Part shown: one piece after another, positions 27,132-38,225 of the stretch
How positions within the stretch are numbered: the first letter of the stretch is position 1
Layout: each line of letters begins with the position of its first letter
From: Thermoanaerobaculia bacterium
GTDB taxonomy: Bacteria > Acidobacteriota > Thermoanaerobaculia > Multivoradales > JAHZIX01
Assembly: GCA_027069135.1 (NCBI GenBank)
Contig: JALXFE010000527.1
Coordinates: 1 to 38,225, forward strand
DNA length: 38,225 nucleotides
Direction: 5' to 3'
Notes under the pieces: model-generated
Told to the model about the DNA's origin: nothing
What the model saw: the letters and a program-made list of their open reading frames with translations, nothing else
Database searches by the model: none
Position numbers and translations under genes: made by a program

Positions 27132-27456
27132 ATTCTCCTCTCCGCCTTGCTGTGCGGCAGATCCAACAGCCTTCGAGGCATCGCCCTTTCGCCTCGCCGA
27201 GGTACGTCCGTGAAAAAGGCTCAGCCCCGGCTTCCCCAACGTGCAAGCCAAGTGATGCGCTCCAGCGCAACTCATTATTTGTTGGAGCCCGCTCTGTACG
27301 AGTCGACGCCGCACACGTCCCCAAGCCTCAGACCCACCCGTGGACCCTCGGAGTCTGACCCCGAGGCGGGGACGGCTGCTCGCGGCGCGGCCCTGCTCGA
27401 TGTTGTTGTCGATTCCGGTACCGATCCGCGGGCGATGGATCTGGAGGGTTTCGGTC
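27132..27456. other. Gene-free stretch upstream of the endonuclease gene
   Basis: No gene, convincing promoter or stable hairpin was recognised. The GC-rich frames through this segment have no ribosome-binding sites. Confidence 0.5.
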
Positions 27457-30400
27457 ATGAAAGTACTCTCTACCCGCCCTAGGGTATTTCGTCTTTACCA
27501 TAAGCAATGCCTGGCAGCGGTCGTGCTCTTTGGCCCGGCGGCGGCATTGTTGGCGCAGGCTCCGGCGGATTATTACGACACCGTCGACAGCAGTAGCGCG
27601 GCGGCCTTGCGGACCACCCTTCATGAGGTCATCGACGACCACACCCGCTTCCCTTATACCGCCAGCACCACCGATACCTGGGACATTCTCAACTTGGCGG
27701 ACGAGGACCCCAACAATCCGGCAAATATCCTCGACGTCTATCGCAACGCCAGCTACACCAAGATTCCAGGAGGGGTCGGTGCCTACAACCGGGAGCATAC
27801 GTGGCCCAAGTCCTATGGTTTTCCCAACGACGGTTCCACCAACTACCCCTACACCGACTGTCATCATCTCTTCACCGCCGATTCCGGGTACAACAGCTCC
27901 CGGAGCAACAAGCCTTACCGCTTCTGCAACGCCGGTTGTTCGGAGAAGACCACCCTCTTCAACGACGGTCGGGGCGGGGGCTCCGGGGTCTATCCAGGAA
28001 ATTCCAGCTGGACGACCGGTGCTTTCGCTACCGGCACGTGGGAGACCTGGAGCGGCCGGCGAGGGGATGTGGCCCGGGCGCTCTTCTACATGGATATACG
28101 CTACGAGGGTGGAACCCACGGTATCACGGCGTGGCGGAGCCGGACCTTGGGCTCACCGACGACGAAACCCTCATCGATGCCTTCAAGACCGGCTCAAACG
28201 AGCCCATGGCCTTCATGGGGATCCTTTCGGATCTACTCATCTGGCATGATCAGGATCCGGTGGACAGCCTCGAGACCTGGCGCAACGACGTCGTCTTCAG
28301 CTTCCAGGGCAACCGCAATCCGTTCATCGACCATCCGGAATGGGTGCGCTGCATTTTTGCCGACGAATGCTCCTTCGACAGCGTGCCGCCGGCGGCGCCC
28401 CAGAGCTTGATCGCTTCCGATTTGAACGGCGGCGCCGAACTCTCCTGGTTGTCCAACAGCGAGCCGGATTTGGCAGGCTACAACGTCTCCCGGTCCACTA
28501 CGGTGGGTGGCCCCTACGGCCTCGTGTACGCCGCTCTGGTCACCGGCACTACCTACACCGATCTGGGCCTGGTCAACGGCACGACCTACTTCTACGTCGT
28601 CGTCGCCGCCGATACTTCTAACAACGAGAGTGCTTTGAGCAACGAGGCTTCGGCGACGCCGGACGGTGGCCTACCGGACATCACCCCTCCCGGGGCTCCT
28701 ACCGGGGTCGGGGCCACCCCCGGCGACGGCCAACTCCAGCTCTCCTGGAATGCCAACGGTGAGCTGGATCTGGCGGGCTACAACGCGTACCGGTCCACCA
28801 CATCGGGAACCGGGTTCGTGAAGATCAACATCGCCCTGCTGACCTCCACGAGCCTTCTCGATACCGCCTTGACCAACGGCACGACCTATTTCTACGTGGT
28901 GACGGCGGTGGATACCTTCGGCAACGAGAGCCTGGACAGCACGGAGGTCTCCGGCACTCCAGCGGCCCCGGGGGTCGGTGGCATCCTGCTCAGCGAGGTG
29001 CTCTACGATGTCAGCAGTGGAGACGATGGTTTCGAGTGGGTGGAGCTTTTCAACAGCGGTGCCGGCTCGGTGGATCTTTCCGGCTACAGCCTTGGCATCG
29101 GGGGGACGACCTACATCACCAGCGTCGTTCAATTGGCCGGAATCATCGCCCCGGGACAAGCCTTTGTTGTGGGTGGTCCGACCAGCGGTGCCACCAACGG
29201 CAATCCGTCCTTCGATCTGGTGGTGAATTTCTCGCCGGATTTCCAGAACAGCGGTACGACGGCGGACGGCGTCGCCCTCTTCGATGTTCCTGCCGGCCTG
29301 GTGACCGGTTCCACGGTACCGGTGGACGCGGTGGTCTACGGCGGTTCCAACGCCAACGGCCTGATCGACGAGACCGGGGTGGCCAACGCTCCGGAGGTGG
29401 GGGACGCGTCCGCCGGATCCTCTATCGAACGGATCGACCTGGCCGGATCCTGGCAAGTCCAGGGCACCCCGACCCCCAATGCTTCATCTCTGGGAAGTGT
29501 TTCGAACACGGCGCCGACGGTGACGATCACAGCACCGGCGAATGGCTCCACGTTCAACGTTGGGGACTCGGTGACCTTCAGCGGCACGGCGACGGACGGG
29601 GAAGACGGCACGATCTCGGCTTCCTTGAGTTGGAGCTCGAGCCTGGACGGCGCCTGAGGCACCGGGGCGAGCTTCTCGACAGCGGTTCTTACTGTCGGTA
29701 GCCACACGATCACGGCGTCGGTGACCGATTCCGGTGGGCTTTCGGGCTCGGATTCGATCTCGGTCAGCGTCCAGGCGCCGGTCAGCTTCGGCGTCATCTT
29801 GAGTGAGGTCTTCTACGATCCCGCGAGTACTGACGACGGCCTGGAGTGGGTCGAGATCTTCAACGCCGGCTCGACGGCGGTGGATCTTTCCGGCTTCAGT
29901 CTCGGCAACGGCGGCGCCGCCTACACCGCCAGCTTGGTACAGCTCGCGGGTATCCTGGCCCCGGGCCAGATCTATGTGGTGGGCGGGGCTACCAGCAACG
30001 CCTCCAACGGCAATCCGACCTTCGATCAGGTCTTCAACTTCAACCCGGATTTTCAAAACAGCGGCACGACCGCCGACGGGGTGGCCCTGTTCAATGTTGC
30101 CGCTGGTCTGGTGACCAGTGCCACGGTGCCGATCGATGCGGTGGTCTACGGCGGCTCGAACACAAACGGCCTCATCGACGAGACCGGCACGGCCAACATT
30201 CCGGAAGTGGGAGATGCCCCCTCCGGTTCGTCCATCGAGCGCCTCGACCTGGCCGGTAGCTGGCAGGCCCAGGGGATTCCCTCACCGAATACCTCACCGC
30301 TCGGGGGCTTTTCGAATACGGCCCCGGTCGTGACGATCACCGCCCCGGCGGACGGTTCGTCATCGACCACCGGCGATGCCGTGACCTTCGCCGGCACGGC

Positions 30401-30896
30401 GACGGATGCGGAAGATGGAGCCATCTCGGCTTCCCTCACCTGGAACTCGAACCTGGATGGTGCCCTCGGCAGCGGTGCGAGTTTTTCTACCAGCGCCCTG
30501 ACGGTGGGGACCCACACGGTGACCGCCAGCGTCTCCGATTCGGGTGGGCTTTCGGGGATGGATTCCATCACTGTCACGGTAACGGGCGGCGCCACTCCCT
30601 TGACCGTCACTTTCACCTCCATCGGTGCCGAGGACGGCTGGGTGCGGGAGTCCAGCGAGACCAGCGGCGTCGGCGGCGCCCGCAGCTCCACCGGCAAGGG
30701 TTCGAGACCCATCCGGCCGGGGGACGGCAAGAATGATCGGCAGTACAAGAGCATCCTGTCTTTCGACACCTCGTCCATTCCGACCGGCGCCACGGTTACG
30801 GCGGCGACCCTGCGGCTGCGGCGGGGCACGGTCCGCGGGACCAACCCCTTCACCATCCTGGGGAGCTGTGTCGTCGACGTCCGGAGCGAAGAATGA
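27457..30896 (+). pseudogene. Secreted endonuclease I with FnIII and lamin-tail domains, frameshifted, nonsense-mutated and 3'-truncated
   Basis: From ATG 27457 the protein has a signal peptide (cleavage near LLAQA) and an endonuclease I His-Me-finger nuclease core (NREHTWPKSYGF, YTDCHHLFTADSGYNSSRSNKPY). Two fibronectin type III domains (about 28380-28965), two lamin-tail plus Ig-like units (28978-29784 and 29791-30591) and the start of a DNRLRE-type domain (from about 30603) follow. Three lesions are seen: a one-base loss near 28128 (ATCACG|GGCGTG restores the frame), TGA at 29655-29657 where the second unit has Leu, and an abrupt end at 30896 before the last domain is complete. It would have been an extracellular nuclease attached to surfaces or DNA. 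Confidence 0.8.
28978..30591 (+). repeat. Tandem duplication of a lamin-tail plus Ig-like module, about 810 bp each
   Basis: 28978-29784 and 29791-30591 align along their whole length at protein and DNA level, for example FQNSGTTADGVALF, YGGSN.NGLIDETG and SVSDSGGLSG-like segments. This is an internal duplication within the endonuclease gene. Confidence 0.75.
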
Positions 30897-31111: not shown

Positions 31112-32053
31112 TCAGGGCGGCCCATGAGCCCTGACGAAGGGCCGGCCCGGTGGAAAGCACCCTTCCGGGAACGGGACATCGAGCTTCCCGCTTCGGAGCA
31201 TCTCGGAGGCGGACCGGTAGGCCTGAAGAAAGATTCGATAGGCTTCAATGTATCTCTTGCGAATACCTCGACTCGCCGCGTGAACGATGGGTAGCCGGCT
31301 TTTCTTGGCGGTGTCCGGTTGGTGGCGGGGATCTTGGCGGAGAACCGCTTGCTGACCGAGGGGGCAGGTCCCTTGCTCGAGGTGCCGAGCCGCCGTCGCC
31401 TCTTCAATTTCTTGAACCAAGTCAGAAATGCGGCTCAGATACTCCTCCGGTGAAAGGTCCTCCCAGCAGGGTATTTGGGAGATCTTGAGTTCGATCTCTT
31501 CTTCAAAGTCGATGGGCCGTACCTTTCCTTGGTTCCTCTTCCGTCGGCGAGCTTCATAGAGAGCTGTGCGGTCGATCCATTTGCCCTTTGGATTTCGGCC
31601 GGAGAGCAGGATTGAAGCCGCATGAACCCCTGGCCAGTCCCGGGGCCGAGCCACAAGCCCCTCTTTGCAGCCCTGCTCCAAGACGTAGCGGAGCATCTTG
31701 ACCTGGGAGGCTTCGTCGTTGGCGACGATCGACGAAGAGAAGGGCTGGCCCCAGAATTTCCCTTCCCATCCGTGGAGTCTCCCGATCTCCCGAGCGATAT
31801 TGCCGTCGACAAAGTGCATGAATTTGGCCTGATGCTCAGCGTCTCGGAACCAGACCAGGAGGTGCCCGTGGTTGGATAGAAACGCGGGTGCAAAGACCCG
31901 GACATCGTATTTTCTCTGGGCCTTGGCCAAGACTCCGAGGATCAACTGGTTGACCCTCTCGGAGGGCCTAAGTAGGAATCGTGCTTGGATACATCGGATA
32001 GAGACGAGGACCATCTCTCCGGGCGACGGGACATAGCGTGGTGAATTTGACAT
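31112..32053 (-). CDS. REP-associated tyrosine transposase-like protein (Y1_Tnp, IS200-like)
   Basis: The 313-residue protein has the HUH motif in FLSNHGHLLVWF (about 60-70) and a helix RYVLEQGCKEGLVARPRDWPG (about 125), where the Tyr is the expected nucleophile and the tail resembles the NPV(R)AGLV motif. ARFLLRPSERVNQLILGVLAKAQ is typical of the solo, chromosomal RAYT-like group. It lacks a TnpB partner. Two diverged hairpin repeats lie 46-132 bp upstream of its start. It lies about 215 bp beyond the truncated end of the endonuclease gene and may have caused the truncation. Confidence 0.82.
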   Translation of the reverse strand: MSNSPRYVPSPGEMVLVSIRCIQARFLLRPSERVNQLILGVLAKAQRKYDVRVFAPAFLSNHGHLLVWFRDAEHQAKFMHFVDGNIAREIGRLHGWEGKFWGQPFSSSIVANDEASQVKMLRYVLEQGCKEGLVARPRDWPGVHAASILLSGRNPKGKWIDRTALYEARRRKRNQGKVRPIDFEEEIELKISQIPCWEDLSPEEYLSRISDLVQEIEEATAARHLEQGTCPLGQQAVLRQDPRHQPDTAKKSRLPIVHAASRGIRKRYIEAYRIFLQAYRSASEMLRSGKLDVPFPEGCFPPGRPFVRAHGPP

Positions 32054-32202: not shown

Positions 32203-33396
32203 TCAGAACGAAAGGAGCTGCAGATTCAGGCTCCGTTCGACGAACCAAACGAGGGCGATGGTGGCGACCAGAACGGAGCCCAGAACGACGACTCCGTGGC
32301 GGTAGAGGCGGGTGTTGCGCAGTAGATAGGCCAGGGGCAGGAAGGCGGTGACAATGGCTAGTTGCCCGGTCTCGACGCCCAGGTTGAAGCCGGCGAGAGC
32401 TCGGGCCAGGGCGCCGTCCGGCAAGCCGAGGTCTCGGAGCACGGTGGCAAAGCCGAAGCCGTGAATCAGGCCGAGGAGGAAAGCTGCCCGCCAGGGTTTC
32501 TCACCGAAGATGGGGAAGAGGTTGTTGAGCGCCGCCAACATCACCGTGGCCGCGATGGTGGCCTCTATCCAGCGGGAGGGTAGGGAGACCCAGCCGAGGG
32601 CCGCTACAGCGAGGGTGACGGAATGGGCGACGGTGAAAGCGGTGACGACACCGGCGACCCGGACCAGGATCTTTCGAAACCCGCCGACGGGGCGCCAGGA
32701 CCGTCCCTCCCGCCGGAGCACCGCCGGCAGCAGCAGGGCCAGCAGGAAGAGGATGTGGTCGTAGCCGATCCAGATATGCCAGACCCCTTGGCGCCAATAG
32801 CTGGCCAGCTGCCTCCAGGGGCCAATGCCGTCAGTGCCAGTGCCGTCAGTGCCAGTGCCGTCAGTGCCAAGATGAGCCGTCGGCGCGGCCGGGGATAGAA
32901 CCAGGGTCGTCTCCGAAGCCCCGTTCCGGACCCGGAGGAGGCCCCGATGGGTTGGGTCGAGATCGAAGAAGAGCCGGTAGTCGACGGCCACCGTGCCGAC
33001 CCTCCGAGGGCAGTCGAACTCGAACTCGAGGACGCTGTAGGCGCCATCGCTGTGACGATCCACCAGCTGCCGGCGGGGGGTGGCCACGCAGTCCACGCCG
33101 TCCCGGGTAACCCTCAGATGGGCTAAGGCGAAGGCGGCGATGTTTTGGTGTTGCTGCTGCAGCTCTCCCCAGGAGATCGCGCCGTCGAGGTCGCTGTCGA
33201 GGCCCAGGGCGTACTCCAGGTCACGCAGCGCAATGTCCCACCGGCCGCGGATTGGCCCGGTGTCAACGGAGAGGGTCAGGTAGCTATCGCTGGGTTTGTG
33301 GGCGTGGGCCGCGCGGGGCATCGAGGCCATCGAGATCAGGACCAGGAGGGAGACGAGGACTCGGTTCGCGGGGCTCTTGGATTTCTGGGGGCTCAT
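32203..33396 (-). CDS. HupE/UreJ_2-family membrane protein
   Basis: This 397-residue protein has a signal-like N-terminus (VLVSLLVLISMASMPRAAHAHKPSDSYL) and a periplasmic beta-rich domain including an EF-hand-like DSDLDGAISWGEL segment. The C-terminal HupE/UreJ_2 part has about six helices with the His motifs IWIGYDHILFLLALLLP and LLGLIHGFGFATVLRDLGLP, which bind metal in related proteins. A TDGTG triplet repeat separates the parts. ATG 33396 overlaps the TPR gene stop (ATGA). A metal transport or insertion role is family knowledge; the metal is not evident. Confidence 0.85.
   Translation of the reverse strand: MSPQKSKSPANRVLVSLLVLISMASMPRAAHAHKPSDSYLTLSVDTGPIRGRWDIALRDLEYALGLDSDLDGAISWGELQQQHQNIAAFALAHLRVTRDGVDCVATPRRQLVDRHSDGAYSVLEFEFDCPRRVGTVAVDYRLFFDLDPTHRGLLRVRNGASETTLVLSPAAPTAHLGTDGTGTDGTGTDGIGPWRQLASYWRQGVWHIWIGYDHILFLLALLLPAVLRREGRSWRPVGGFRKILVRVAGVVTAFTVAHSVTLAVAALGWVSLPSRWIEATIAATVMLAALNNLFPIFGEKPWRAAFLLGLIHGFGFATVLRDLGLPDGALARALAGFNLGVETGQLAIVTAFLPLAYLLRNTRLYRHGVVVLGSVLVATIALVWFVERSLNLQLLSF
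32826..32870. repeat. 15-bp minisatellite (three units) within the HupE-like gene
   Basis: TGCCGTCAGTGCCAG is repeated in tandem at 32826-32840, 32841-32855 and 32856-32870 (last base changed). It encodes repeated TDGTG in a linker, so unit-number changes would keep the frame. Confidence 0.85.
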
Positions 33397-34625
33397 GGGG
33401 TGATCTCCTGCAAACGAGCGGCCAGGGACGCCAGCTGGAGGTCTTCGATGCCGGTCGAGGCCAGCCAATCAAGAACCGGCGCCGCCGCTGCCGGCTGCCG
33501 GGCGGCGAGGGCGGCTTCGAGGACGAGACGCGCATCCCGCGGTTCCCGCTGGAGGCGCCAGTTGGACAGGGCAAGCTTCAGGGCCTCCCTCGGGTGACCC
33601 TGTAGGCGGAGGCGGAAGCGGGCCTCGCTGCCTTCATGAGTGGTCTCGCCGCGGGTCCGAGCGGCGGTGAAGCGGGCCTCCAACGCCGCTTCGTGGGCGC
33701 TGTAGCGGCCGGAGCCGGTCCTCTGCTCGGCTTCCGCGAGGCGCAGGAGAAGCGTGTCGACGCGTTCTTCTCCATCGAGGAGACGGAGGACTTCCTTGGG
33801 CCGATCCTGATCGAGGAGGAAGTCCGAGTAGGCGGCGAGGAGGTAGATGTCCCGGCCCCCTAAGTCCATGGCCAACCGAAAATGATCTTCGGCGCTGCCA
33901 GCATCGCCGGCCAGAACGGCAATTTCGGCGAGCGTCGTCAAGGCCCAGGCTTGAGCATCGGGCAGGGCTTCGGGGCTTTCCTCGAGAGCCCGGAGCAGAT
34001 CCTCGTAGCTTCCTTGAGCCCGGCCGCGCAGGCTAAGGACGCCGCTTCGACAGGCCGTCGACATCAACCGGTCGGTGAGGTGGGTCAGGGCGAGGCAGCT
34101 GGCCGAAGCGCCATCCAGATCGCCGGAGACCTGCTGGACGAGAGCCAAAGTCATCCAGCCCTGAGCGCTTCCCGGGCGCTGCTGCAGGTAGAGCTTCAGA
34201 TCTTTGAGAGCGGTTTCGAACTCATGAATGTTCTGCCTCAGGGTGGCGCGCAGCAAGAGGATCTCGGCCGGCGGCGCTTCGAGTCCCCACCAGGGAGCGA
34301 GCACCGCCTGGGCATAGCCGCTGTAGCGAGGATCGCCCTCGCGGCGGCCGAGGCGGATCAGCTTCCAGGCGCTGTGGACCGCGAGCTCGAGGTCCTCGGG
34401 CTGGTTTGCGAGGACGGCGCGGAGGCGCCGGAGCTCTTTCATCTCCTGGCGGTCGGCGCCGCGGGGAAGCCGTTCGAGGATCTGGGAATCGTCTGTGGGC
34501 ACGAAGGCATCGCTCCAGGCTGCGTCGGCAAGGGTCAGGGCTAGCAGCACGGCGAGGCATAGGGAGCGCCCGGGCGGGCACGGCTTCGTGCCGACCGGGT
34601 GCGATGGGGAAGGGGAGCAAGGCAT
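33393..34625 (-). CDS. Secreted TPR-like repeat protein
   Basis: This 410-residue protein starts at ATG 34625 behind a strong AAGGAG site. A signal peptide (SLCLAVLLALTLADAAWSDA) is followed by successive tetratricopeptide-like helical pairs, for example LRRLRAVLANQPEDLELAVHSAWKLIRLGR, FETALKDLKLYLQQRPGSAQGWMTLALVQQVSGDLDGA and AWALTTLAEIAVLAGDAGSAEDHF. It is probably periplasmic or surface-exposed and acts as a scaffold. The frame stays open upstream to 34835, but that part lies beyond the ribosome-binding site. The gene overlaps the HupE-like gene, with which it must be co-expressed. Confidence 0.85.
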   Translation of the reverse strand: MPCSPSPSHPVGTKPCPPGRSLCLAVLLALTLADAAWSDAFVPTDDSQILERLPRGADRQEMKELRRLRAVLANQPEDLELAVHSAWKLIRLGRREGDPRYSGYAQAVLAPWWGLEAPPAEILLLRATLRQNIHEFETALKDLKLYLQQRPGSAQGWMTLALVQQVSGDLDGASASCLALTHLTDRLMSTACRSGVLSLRGRAQGSYEDLLRALEESPEALPDAQAWALTTLAEIAVLAGDAGSAEDHFRLAMDLGGRDIYLLAAYSDFLLDQDRPKEVLRLLDGEERVDTLLLRLAEAEQRTGSGRYSAHEAALEARFTAARTRGETTHEGSEARFRLRLQGHPREALKLALSNWRLQREPRDARLVLEAALAARQPAAAAPVLDWLASTGIEDLQLASLAARLQEITP

Positions 34626-34656
34626 CGTGGTCTCCTTGAAGGCTCGAGAGAAGAAG

Positions 34657-34706
34657 GGAGTGCCGGCGACCCCGGCCGGGGGGAGGCTGGGAGCCTCCGG
34701 CACTCC
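34657..34706 (-). other. Intercistronic hairpin between DUF4331 and TPR genes
   Basis: GGAGTGCCGG (34657-34666) and CCGGCACTCC (34697-34706) form a perfect 10-bp stem. A second, overlapping stem GGAGGCT/AGCCTCC (34682-34698) competes with it. No T-run follows on the transcribed strand. It may protect the upstream DUF4331 message or lower expression of the downstream genes. Confidence 0.55.
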
Positions 34707-34725
34707 GGGAGAAAGATTTTGGGGT

Positions 34726-36339
34726 CTAGGGGCAGGTGCCGGTGCAGCCGGGCTCACCCGGATCCACGTGGCGGCTCTCGGCGCCGGAATGGGCATAGCC
34801 GAGGTAGGGGAAGGTCTCCCGGTAGGCGACGTCATTGGCGTTGACGCCGTCTCCCACCCGGTTGTGGGGAAAGCGATTGAATTCCGGACCGGCGAGGATT
34901 CCCACCACCGCCCGTAGCGTGATGTCCACCACGTCGTCGCTCAAGCGGCGGCCGTTGGGGAAGCCCGCCGGGTCGTCGTTGGCCGGATCGTCGTCGAGGA
35001 GCGTGAGGAAGCCGAGACGGCTACGGCCTTGGGCCGGGGTTGCCGGGAATCCGGTGTTGAGGCGCAGGAGATCCGCCACCGGACCGGGCCGAGTTCCCGG
35101 CGCAGCTACCGGCGGGACATACTGAACCAACGGCAGCAGGTCCAACCGGGGGGCGTCCGGCACGGGCAGGATACCGGGCGCCACCGTGGCGTCGTAGGCG
35201 GCGTTGAGCACCCGGGCGATGACCGGATCCAGAACAAAGTTGGCGAAGCGCCGATCATTGCGGGGAAAGCTGCGGCTGAACAGATCCTTGGAGCCGATGC
35301 CGATGACCAACTCGTTGATCAGGGGGTTGCCCATGCGTTGGATCTGGACGAATTGGTTGCCGAGGATCGGCCGTAGCGAGGGATGGCGAAGGATCTTGAC
35401 CCGGGGACGGGCGGTCGTTCCCCAGACACCGATAGTGGCCTTTGGCTCGTTGGCGCGGTGCCGCTCGCCGTCCTGGGTCACCATGGAGATGGGCACCTCG
35501 ATGGCGATGGCGTTGACGTTGAAACCGGCCACATCGTCCGGGGCAAAGTTGTCCCGGTCGTTGGCGTCCTGGGCGTCGCTCAGCACTCCAGCGACGCCGG
35601 TCTCAAAGGCGTCGGTCCGCAGGTTGAGAGAATCGAAGGCGGCACCGAGATCGATCCAGAAAGGGTCTTCGACGGTGCCGGCGAAGATCTTGATACCGTC
35701 ATCGAGGTCGTAGATGCCCTGGTCCGCCAGGGCCGGATAGTCAGGCATCGTGCGCGGGCCGACGTTGGTCGGGACGGCGTAGAGGGGTCGGTCCCCGGAG
35801 ATGAGGGTTCGCTGGGCTCTGCGGCCGAAGCCCTCCACCATCGTTACCGAGTAGGTCTGGCGCAGGCTCAGGCCCTCGGATCCGGGTCCATCCAGCGCGG
35901 TGATGGCCGGCGGCACGATAGGTGTGCCCGCAGGTACCGGTGCCGGCGAATTGTCCGGAGCGTTGATACCCCCACCGGCCCCTACCAGACCGGTGAAGAC
36001 GCCGGGGAGGCGCATCTCCGTCTTGAAGCGGAACTCGAAGGTGATGTCTTCGACGGCGTCGTGATCGTTGTCGATGCGGATGGCGTAGAGCATCTCCGGA
36101 TCGAAGGGAAAATGCGTCGGGCCGTTGGAGGGCTCGAGGAGGGGATCGACGTCCAGGATGAACGTCACTTTGTTGGGATCGTCATAGCTGACGAAGGCGA
36201 AGACATCGGTGATGTCGGCCTTGGGGTCGAGGGCCGTCAAGGGCGCCTCTCGGTGGTTGGCGGCAAAAGAGCTACCAGCGCCCAATAGCGCGAGAGCTCC
36301 TGCTGCGGTCAGACGGGTGAAACTGGTTCGGAGAGTCAT
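34726..36339 (-). CDS. Secreted DUF4331-domain protein
   Basis: The 537-residue product starts at ATG 36339, behind AAGGAG, with a signal peptide (TAAGALALLGAGSSFA), then NHREAPLTALDPKADITDVFAFVSY, the DUF4331 signature. It continues with paired domains that contain the DRDNFAPDDVAGFNVNAIAIEVP and VADLLRLNTGFPAT-like repeats. The function of DUF4331 is unknown. It is the first gene of an operon with the TPR and HupE-like genes, all exported or in the membrane. A sigma-54 promoter precedes it, so expression should be tightly inducible. Confidence 0.88.
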   Translation of the reverse strand: MTLRTSFTRLTAAGALALLGAGSSFAANHREAPLTALDPKADITDVFAFVSYDDPNKVTFILDVDPLLEPSNGPTHFPFDPEMLYAIRIDNDHDAVEDITFEFRFKTEMRLPGVFTGLVGAGGGINAPDNSPAPVPAGTPIVPPAITALDGPGSEGLSLRQTYSVTMVEGFGRRAQRTLISGDRPLYAVPTNVGPRTMPDYPALADQGIYDLDDGIKIFAGTVEDPFWIDLGAAFDSLNLRTDAFETGVAGVLSDAQDANDRDNFAPDDVAGFNVNAIAIEVPISMVTQDGERHRANEPKATIGVWGTTARPRVKILRHPSLRPILGNQFVQIQRMGNPLINELVIGIGSKDLFSRSFPRNDRRFANFVLDPVIARVLNAAYDATVAPGILPVPDAPRLDLLPLVQYVPPVAAPGTRPGPVADLLRLNTGFPATPAQGRSRLGFLTLLDDDPANDDPAGFPNGRRLSDDVVDITLRAVVGILAGPEFNRFPHNRVGDGVNANDVAYRETFPYLGYAHSGAESRHVDPGEPGCTGTCP

Positions 36340-36420
36340 TTCTTCTAACTCCTTTTGGGTTTGTCGTGCCCGCGGTCCGGGTTTGGAGGGTGGGGGCTTC
36401 TGCCGACGCACACCTATAGG

Positions 36421-36435
36421 GCAAGGCCCGTGCCA
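36421..36435 (-). promoter_or_regulatory. Sigma-54 promoter of the DUF4331-TPR-HupE operon
   Basis: On the minus strand TGGCAC-GGGCC-TTGC (36435-36421) matches the -24/-12 consensus TGGCAC-N5-TTGC exactly. Transcription would start near 36408, about 70 bp before the DUF4331 ATG at 36339. It lies just after the gene for a sigma-54 activator. Confidence 0.85.
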
Positions 36436-36474
36436 GGAAAAAGCGGCCTAAAAGGGGTCAAAAGGAGAGAAACG

Positions 36475-36521
36475 TTGAGATATCTCAAGTCAGCCTGAGA
36501 CGGCAATGAGATTTCTTGAGA
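36475..36521 (-). promoter_or_regulatory. Upstream activator-binding sites (TGAGA cluster)
   Basis: A perfect 14-bp palindrome TTGAGATATCTCAA lies at 36475-36488. Further TGAGA half-sites start at 36496, 36507 and 36517, so spacings from the first (36476) are 20, 11 and 10 bp. The cluster is 40-85 bp upstream of the -24 element, a normal location for enhancer sites of a sigma-54 activator. Confidence 0.65.
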
Positions 36522-37934: not shown

Positions 37935-37938
<4 letters not shown>

Positions 37939-38225
37939 CCGTTGTTCTCCTCGGCGCCACATTCGGGGCTACTCCCAGGGCCCCCTCGCGGGGTGCCCGC
38001 CAGCTTCTCCGACGCTCGCTCCACCGCTGCATCGAGCTTGCCGAGCAAGGGGCGAAGGCTCGCGGCGTCTTTCCCCTCAGCCACCGTTTCGAGCTCCACC
38101 GTCACCTGGTAGATCTCGTCGAAACCGTAGGTCCCGGCAGTGCCGGCCAAGCGGTGGAGGATGGCGTCTAAGGTCTTCCAATCCGCCGTTTCGAGCGCCA
38201 CCTGGAGATCGATGAGACGCTTGGG
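37935..38225 (-). CDS. HPt (histidine phosphotransfer) domain protein, partial at right edge
   Basis: The frame is open to the window edge and ends at 37935. It contains the HPt helix LETADWKTLDAILHRLAGTAGTYGFDEI, where the His of ILHRLAG is the phospho-acceptor, followed by a second helix pair. Whether it is a stand-alone HPt protein or the C-terminus of a hybrid kinase lies outside the window. The ATGA overlap with the response regulator makes it the likely phosphate donor. Confidence 0.85.

Follow-up and report, generated by a model that had tools for sequence, protein, structure and literature searches.

A gene for a secreted protein of the DUF4331 family lies next to a response-regulator gene in the genome of a member of the Thermoanaerobaculia (G000, 7.17 Mb), and the locus raises two questions: what switches the gene on, and what purpose its operon serves. 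The window analyzed here is one whole contig of that genome (C527, positions 1-38225). A reading made from the letters alone (hereafter the sequence-only reading) had placed an exact sigma-54 promoter, four TGAGA half-sites, and a perfect 14-bp palindrome in the 213-bp gap between the stop codon of a GAFTGA-containing regulator (36553) and the DUF4331 ATG (36339), and all of these features are present as described. The control region and the genes upstream of it comprise the following:

36421-36435, minus strand: -24/-12 (sigma-54) promoter TGGCACGGGCCTTGC, an exact TGGCAC-N5-TTGC match
36408-36409, minus strand: predicted transcription start
36476-36521, minus strand: candidate enhancer array of five TCTCA/TGAGA half-sites, conserved in orthologous promoters
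36483-36500, no strand assigned: inverted pair TCTCA-N8-TGAGA (18 bp)
36475-36488, no strand assigned: perfect 14-bp palindrome TTGAGATATCTCAA
36553-37938, minus strand: NtrC-type response regulator with REC, AAA+ (GAFTGA), and Fis-type HTH domains, from Pfam and a six-orthologue alignment
37935-38225, minus strand: C-terminal HPt domain of a hybrid histidine kinase (Pfam Hpt, 2.7e-10)

The promoter, the array, and the kinase

A pattern scan finds the exact TGGCAC-N5-TTGC string once in the 38-kb window, and a scan for a sigma-70-type promoter for DUF4331 returned none. The transcription start, placed by the usual spacing from -12 to +1, would lie ~70 nt before the ATG. Genome-wide, the string occurs at 19 sites versus 14 for a reversed control pattern, and because this is near chance the promoter string is weak evidence by itself. 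The half-sites are of another order: TGAGA starts at 36476, 36496, 36507, and 36517 on the plus strand and TCTCA at 36483, three of the five are direct repeats 10-11 bp apart, and none of 100 shuffles of the window attained five half-sites in 46 bp. Thus, the TGAGA half-sites, clustered far beyond chance, were rightly taken as a real feature. The DUF4331 promoter has the only triple TCTCA array of the 7.17-Mb genome, and the counterpart of the palindrome in G001 reads TGAGAATTCTCA. The genome carries rpoN (at G000:C616), so that promoter spacing and sequence, an AAA+ activator with GAFTGA, the sigma factor itself, and upstream sites conserved with the activator are found together. Other exact -24/-12 sites in G000 were considered as extra targets and rejected, as the eight regions read had no half-sites upstream.

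The GAFTGA motif and the SRAT.YR motif of the HTH are kept across the six aligned regulator orthologues, and the regulator's score of 403.4 falls short of the 558.6 required of an NtrC equivalog. The HPt frame continues past the contig end, and its other end overlaps the start of the regulator gene (ATGA). The sequence-only reading had coupled a separate HPt gene to the activator; the coupling holds, and the supposed protein is instead the C terminus of a hybrid kinase. In relatives (L036, L034, L032, and L095) the kinase is intact, with the architecture dCache-HAMP-HisKA-HATPase-REC-HPt, and its gene directly precedes the regulator gene. In the same genome, contig C98 ends within a gene for such a kinase, of which it carries a 320-residue N-terminal part, so a break of the assembly within the kinase gene is most likely. 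Since the HPt is a kinase domain, the circuit would run from kinase to regulator. Autoregulation through the arrays was rejected: no array stands before the kinase genes of seven genomes, and the circuit is probably not controlled in this way.

Elsewhere in the window, 27340-30896 (plus strand) encodes a nuclease-like secreted protein that carries fibronectin-III and lamin-tail-like repeats (domains read by eye) and is split over three frames (27340-28410, 27801-29657, and 29721-30896) by a frameshift in the gene or a sequencing error. At 31112-32053 (minus strand), an ORF resembles, also by eye, a REP-associated tyrosine transposase, with TGGGATTTGGG-type repeated motifs alongside.

Homologous loci and the wider regulon

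The regulator is present in seven of 149 genomes of the class (G000, G001, G002, G003, G029, G033, and G041; regulator-positive below). DUF4331 orthologues, 72-78% identical, occur in G001, G003, G029, G033, and G041 and, split over two frames, in G016. In a common design, an NtrC-type regulator is accompanied by two to six TCTCA/TGAGA half-sites mostly 9-11 bp apart and a downstream -24/-12 promoter. All seven regulator-positive genomes have this design ahead of DUF4331 or TPR-HupE, and three of the seven also have it ahead of unrelated genes for secreted proteins. The array and a -24/-12-like promoter precede DUF4331 in G000, G001, G033, G041, G029, and G003 and the TPR gene in G002 and G029; in G029, TPR-HupE and DUF4331 each have a separate array and promoter. 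There is some variation: G003 has two exact half-sites only and a weaker promoter, and the DUF4331 promoter of G029 has TTGA instead of TTGC. In G033 and G041, a sulfatase-family gene lies between regulator and DUF4331 (G033: L034 9000-11318).

No arrays were found at the DUF4331 homologues of regulator-free G016, G055, Archangium, and others. The exception is G045, where an array and the exact promoter TGGCACGGTGGTTGC precede a DUF4331 gene and the regulator gene is present only as an upstream fragment, a Walker-A peptide fused to the HTH end (L123 6410-6520, G045:C172) directly before the array, a sign of either regulator decay or faulty assembly. The comparison of homologous loci that the sequence-only reading had proposed thus bears it out, with promoter and half-sites kept where the regulator is kept and missing in most loci that lack it.

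Upstream of the -24 element, most half-site intervals (29 of 33) are 9-11 bp, mostly between direct TCTCA repeats, and an inverted TGAGA partner is frequent, at a start-to-start distance of 13 or 22-24 bp. Measured from the promoter, the half-sites are unevenly phased (Rayleigh p = 0.005 at 10.5 bp and 0.039 at 10.0), in a test for which several periods were tried on genomes related to each other. Blindly found GTCTCA repeats had a promoter downstream in 12 of 27 cases read forward and 1 of 27 read backward (p = 4e-4); ~15 further GTCTCA repeats in relatives, with no downstream promoter, were set aside. A composite pattern of array plus promoter matched five of the seven regulator-positive genomes and none of the 142 other genomes of the class (Fisher p = 4e-8; one match for the reversed control), and because it was designed on promoters already seen, its success is partly built in, and more weight falls on the lack of matches in the 142. 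Its only match in the window's genome is the DUF4331 promoter. A looser pattern (TGAGA-N36-50-TGGY-N7-TTGC) failed to separate the genomes and was dropped.

Outside DUF4331 loci, arrays precede genes for predicted secreted proteins, namely several orphans and a VPTAEGQ protein (VPT), whose gene is followed by one for an M14 carboxypeptidase. The VPT orthologues of regulator-positive G001, G033, and G041 have array and promoter, and those of regulator-free G016 and G023 have neither. The proposal that the circuit is dedicated to DUF4331-TPR-HupE therefore holds for the evident target in the window and fails in several relatives, where the same arrays and promoter stand before other secreted-protein genes. 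Three of the regulon proteins (L058 2983-4383, L066 2549-4018, and L065 377-1072) have C-terminal tails resembling DGFESGDTSxW, which may be a common tag for sorting or processing.

The operon and its probable cargo

The candidate target comprises three genes and their associated features:

34726-36339, minus strand: secreted DUF4331 protein, 537 aa (Pfam PF14224, 1.2e-105)
34627-34725, minus strand: intergenic stem-loop between DUF4331 and TPR (-41.3 kcal/mol, z -3.2)
33393-34625, minus strand: secreted TPR protein, from weak TPR matches and clear orthologues in relatives
32203-33396, minus strand: HupE/UreJ-2 permease with an anglerase-like periplasmic domain (Pfam HupE_UreJ_2, PF13795, 5.4e-49)
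33298-33300, minus strand: codon of His33, the predicted mature N-terminal residue (His1), at an A-H-A cleavage site
33163-33198, minus strand: EF-hand-like loop DSDLDGAISWGE, kept in five of six aligned orthologues and degenerate in L033

The DUF4331 protein passes its Pfam cut-off (354.6 bits, positions 2-419 of 421). AlphaFold2 on 17 sequences gave pLDDT 52 and a PDB search gave no match below E 0.001, and we therefore claim no fold for it; a sequence search found no DUF4331 member among solved structures, and we found no paper on DUF4331/PF14224 in the open literature searched. The hupE start overlaps the TPR stop (ATGA). The three genes may form a single transcriptional unit; a strong hairpin follows DUF4331, and in G029 TPR-HupE has an array and a promoter of its own. 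The stem-loop, which has equivalents in L025, L026, and L032 shared by position and not by sequence, may lower expression of TPR-HupE relative to DUF4331.

HupE gives an indication of function. Its signal peptide is predicted, from the A-x-A motif and not from a dedicated predictor, to be cleaved at AHA|HKPSDSYL, and the histidine so exposed is present in six of seven sequences, G002 being the exception. The domain model (pLDDT 82, order E-E-H-H-H-E) is an Ig-like beta-sandwich with helices between strands 2 and 3. It best matches the Cu-bound anglerase Ang-1 (9gce; Z 12.5, 2.8 A over 136 residues), with model residues 1-147 aligned to chain residues 1-157 at 16% identity by structure; by sequence, the domain has no match to 9gce. 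The next structural matches are the Zn-binding ZrgA and PA4063 domains (Z 10-11), and unrelated folds appear at Z 6. Weak matches to Hsc70-interacting protein and EF-hand proteins are a hint only, for the EF-hand-like look of the DxDxDG loop (DxDxDGxITWGE). A 12-bp tandem repeat inside hupE (32825-32875) encodes GTDGTGTDGTGTDG, within the stretch that links the anglerase-like domain to the permease.

Ang-1 binds Cu2+ and Ni2+ through His1 and is proposed to feed the attached permease (PMC12537917). With its signal peptide, N-terminal His, Ig-like fold, and C-terminal permease, HupE resembles an anglerase-HupE/UreJ-2 protein in its sequence and fold features, and it may bind metal. In contrast to Ang-1, it has the EF-hand-like loop and belongs to a lineage outside Pseudomonadota, and neither sigma-54 control nor DUF4331 and TPR partners are described for Ang-1 in that work. 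Given the conserved His1 and the Ang-1-like domain, the operon is probably for transition-metal capture. The sequence-only reading had seen a three-gene envelope system of unknown function; that description no longer suits the operon as a whole, given the anglerase-like domain of HupE.

G002 is the only regulator-positive genome with no DUF4331 match. Its HupE (L076 701-1663) has Gln for His1 and lacks the WHIWIGFDHILFLL and GFGFA membrane motifs, so the regulator can persist there with no working permease; that the DUF4331 match is missing and HupE degenerate in the same genome hints that the two proteins may work together.

The retention of the circuit in G002 alongside a degenerate HupE also favors the strongest competing explanation, which we nevertheless think unlikely: that the cargo has nothing to do with metals, HupE is incidental, and the secreted targets, DUF4331 and TPR among them, belong to a program for extracellular matrix or adhesion like that of PrsK/PrsR. 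PrsR-type regulons do govern extracellular proteins (PMC1569441; PMC9850573), and the G033/G041 regulon consists mostly of secreted proteins with no recognized metal domains, some with DGFESGDTSxW tails, several of them having no visible tie to metals. However, HupE accompanies TPR and DUF4331 in every DUF4331-bearing regulator-positive locus uncut by a contig end, its His1 and membrane motif are conserved, and its domain has a fold in common with three domains that bind metal. Metal capture remains the more probable purpose of the operon.

Proposed mechanism, known systems, and meaning

Taken as a whole, the following account is one that we hold to be likely. A membrane hybrid kinase would sense an external signal through its dCache domain, for which no tie to a metal was seen, and phosphate would pass via the kinase's own REC and HPt domains to the adjoining regulator. 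The phosphorylated regulator would oligomerize on the half-sites, about one helical turn apart and roughly 40-110 bp upstream of -24/-12, and its GAFTGA loop and ATPase would open sigma-54 RNA polymerase at the promoter; the evident target in the window's genome would be the DUF4331-TPR-HupE operon. The HupE periplasmic domain would then capture a transition metal, most likely Cu or Ni, with its N-terminal histidine, and DUF4331 and TPR may aid in metal handling. Comparison supplies the conserved and co-occurring array, promoter, and regulator, the kinase architecture, the predicted fold, and the conserved His1, and from these we infer phosphotransfer, DNA binding, sigma-54 dependence, the identity of the metal, and the direction of transport. 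The earlier proposal that the regulator drives the sigma-54 promoter of this operon is largely supported by the co-occurrence in relatives, minus its free HPt protein.

NtrC-type activators usually bind inverted repeats, and direct repeats are unusual for an NtrC-type dimer. The prevalence of direct 10-11 bp repeats thus lends something to the idea that a different DNA-binding protein owns the TCTCA arrays and that the neighboring regulator acts elsewhere. We consider this improbable, as the regulator gene adjoins the array in G000, G001, G002, and G003 and is one gene away in G033, regulator and array co-occur over the 149 genomes, and the inverted TCTCA-N8-TGAGA pair is present in four promoters (the window, G003, G033 C54, and G033 VPT). 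The link from regulator to array to sigma-54 promoter is, on these comparisons, very likely. Chance assembly of promoter and half-sites in the 213-bp gap, to which the near-chance count of the promoter string might point, is refuted almost beyond doubt by the half-site density and the architecture conserved in seven genomes.

The closest known logic is that of PrsK/PrsR with PrsT (TIGR02915/TIGR02916), which shares the tandem histidine kinase and NtrC-like regulator, the secreted-protein targets, and an associated TPR protein. Also in common are discovery by phylogenetic profile and an enhancer motif, ~60 nt before the -24/-12 promoter in that system (PMC1569441), and one target of this type has been shown to be rpoN-dependent (PMC9850573). 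Here, however, the kinase is a hybrid that combines a dCache sensor with REC and HPt domains, the operon includes a HupE permease, no tie to PEP-CTERM was seen, and scores fall short of the NCBIfam cut-offs for both the regulator (401.7 bits vs 502.6 for TIGR02915) and the TPR protein (20.2 vs 312.2 for TIGR02917). Membership in the PEP-CTERM system was rejected on those scores; the circuit is predicted to work like PrsK/PrsR and is not filed as a member. NtrC/NtrB and similar activators share the REC-AAA+(GAFTGA)-Fis HTH regulator and the sigma-54 promoter, but here the sites are arrays of direct half-sites rather than paired palindromes and the target lies outside nitrogen.

The logic is thus of a known kind, whereas the regulon, the direct-repeat arrays, and the cargo appear undescribed. 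Tentatively, the locus may represent a new sigma-54 regulon, Acidobacteriota-related, in which a dCache kinase and its regulator, acting on head-to-tail TCTCA arrays as a polymer-like enhancer in place of paired palindromes, control anglerase metal capture with DUF4331 and TPR. The direct-repeat arrays raise the question of how an NtrC-type activator binds when palindromes are not paired, and the locus offers a complete predicted set of regulator, sites, promoter, and target in a lineage known mostly from metagenome-assembled genomes. It also contributes a likely anglerase outside Pseudomonadota and Actinomycetota, where the family was described, and places DUF4331 in a context open to testing, an operon probably for metal capture that has a sensor dedicated to it.
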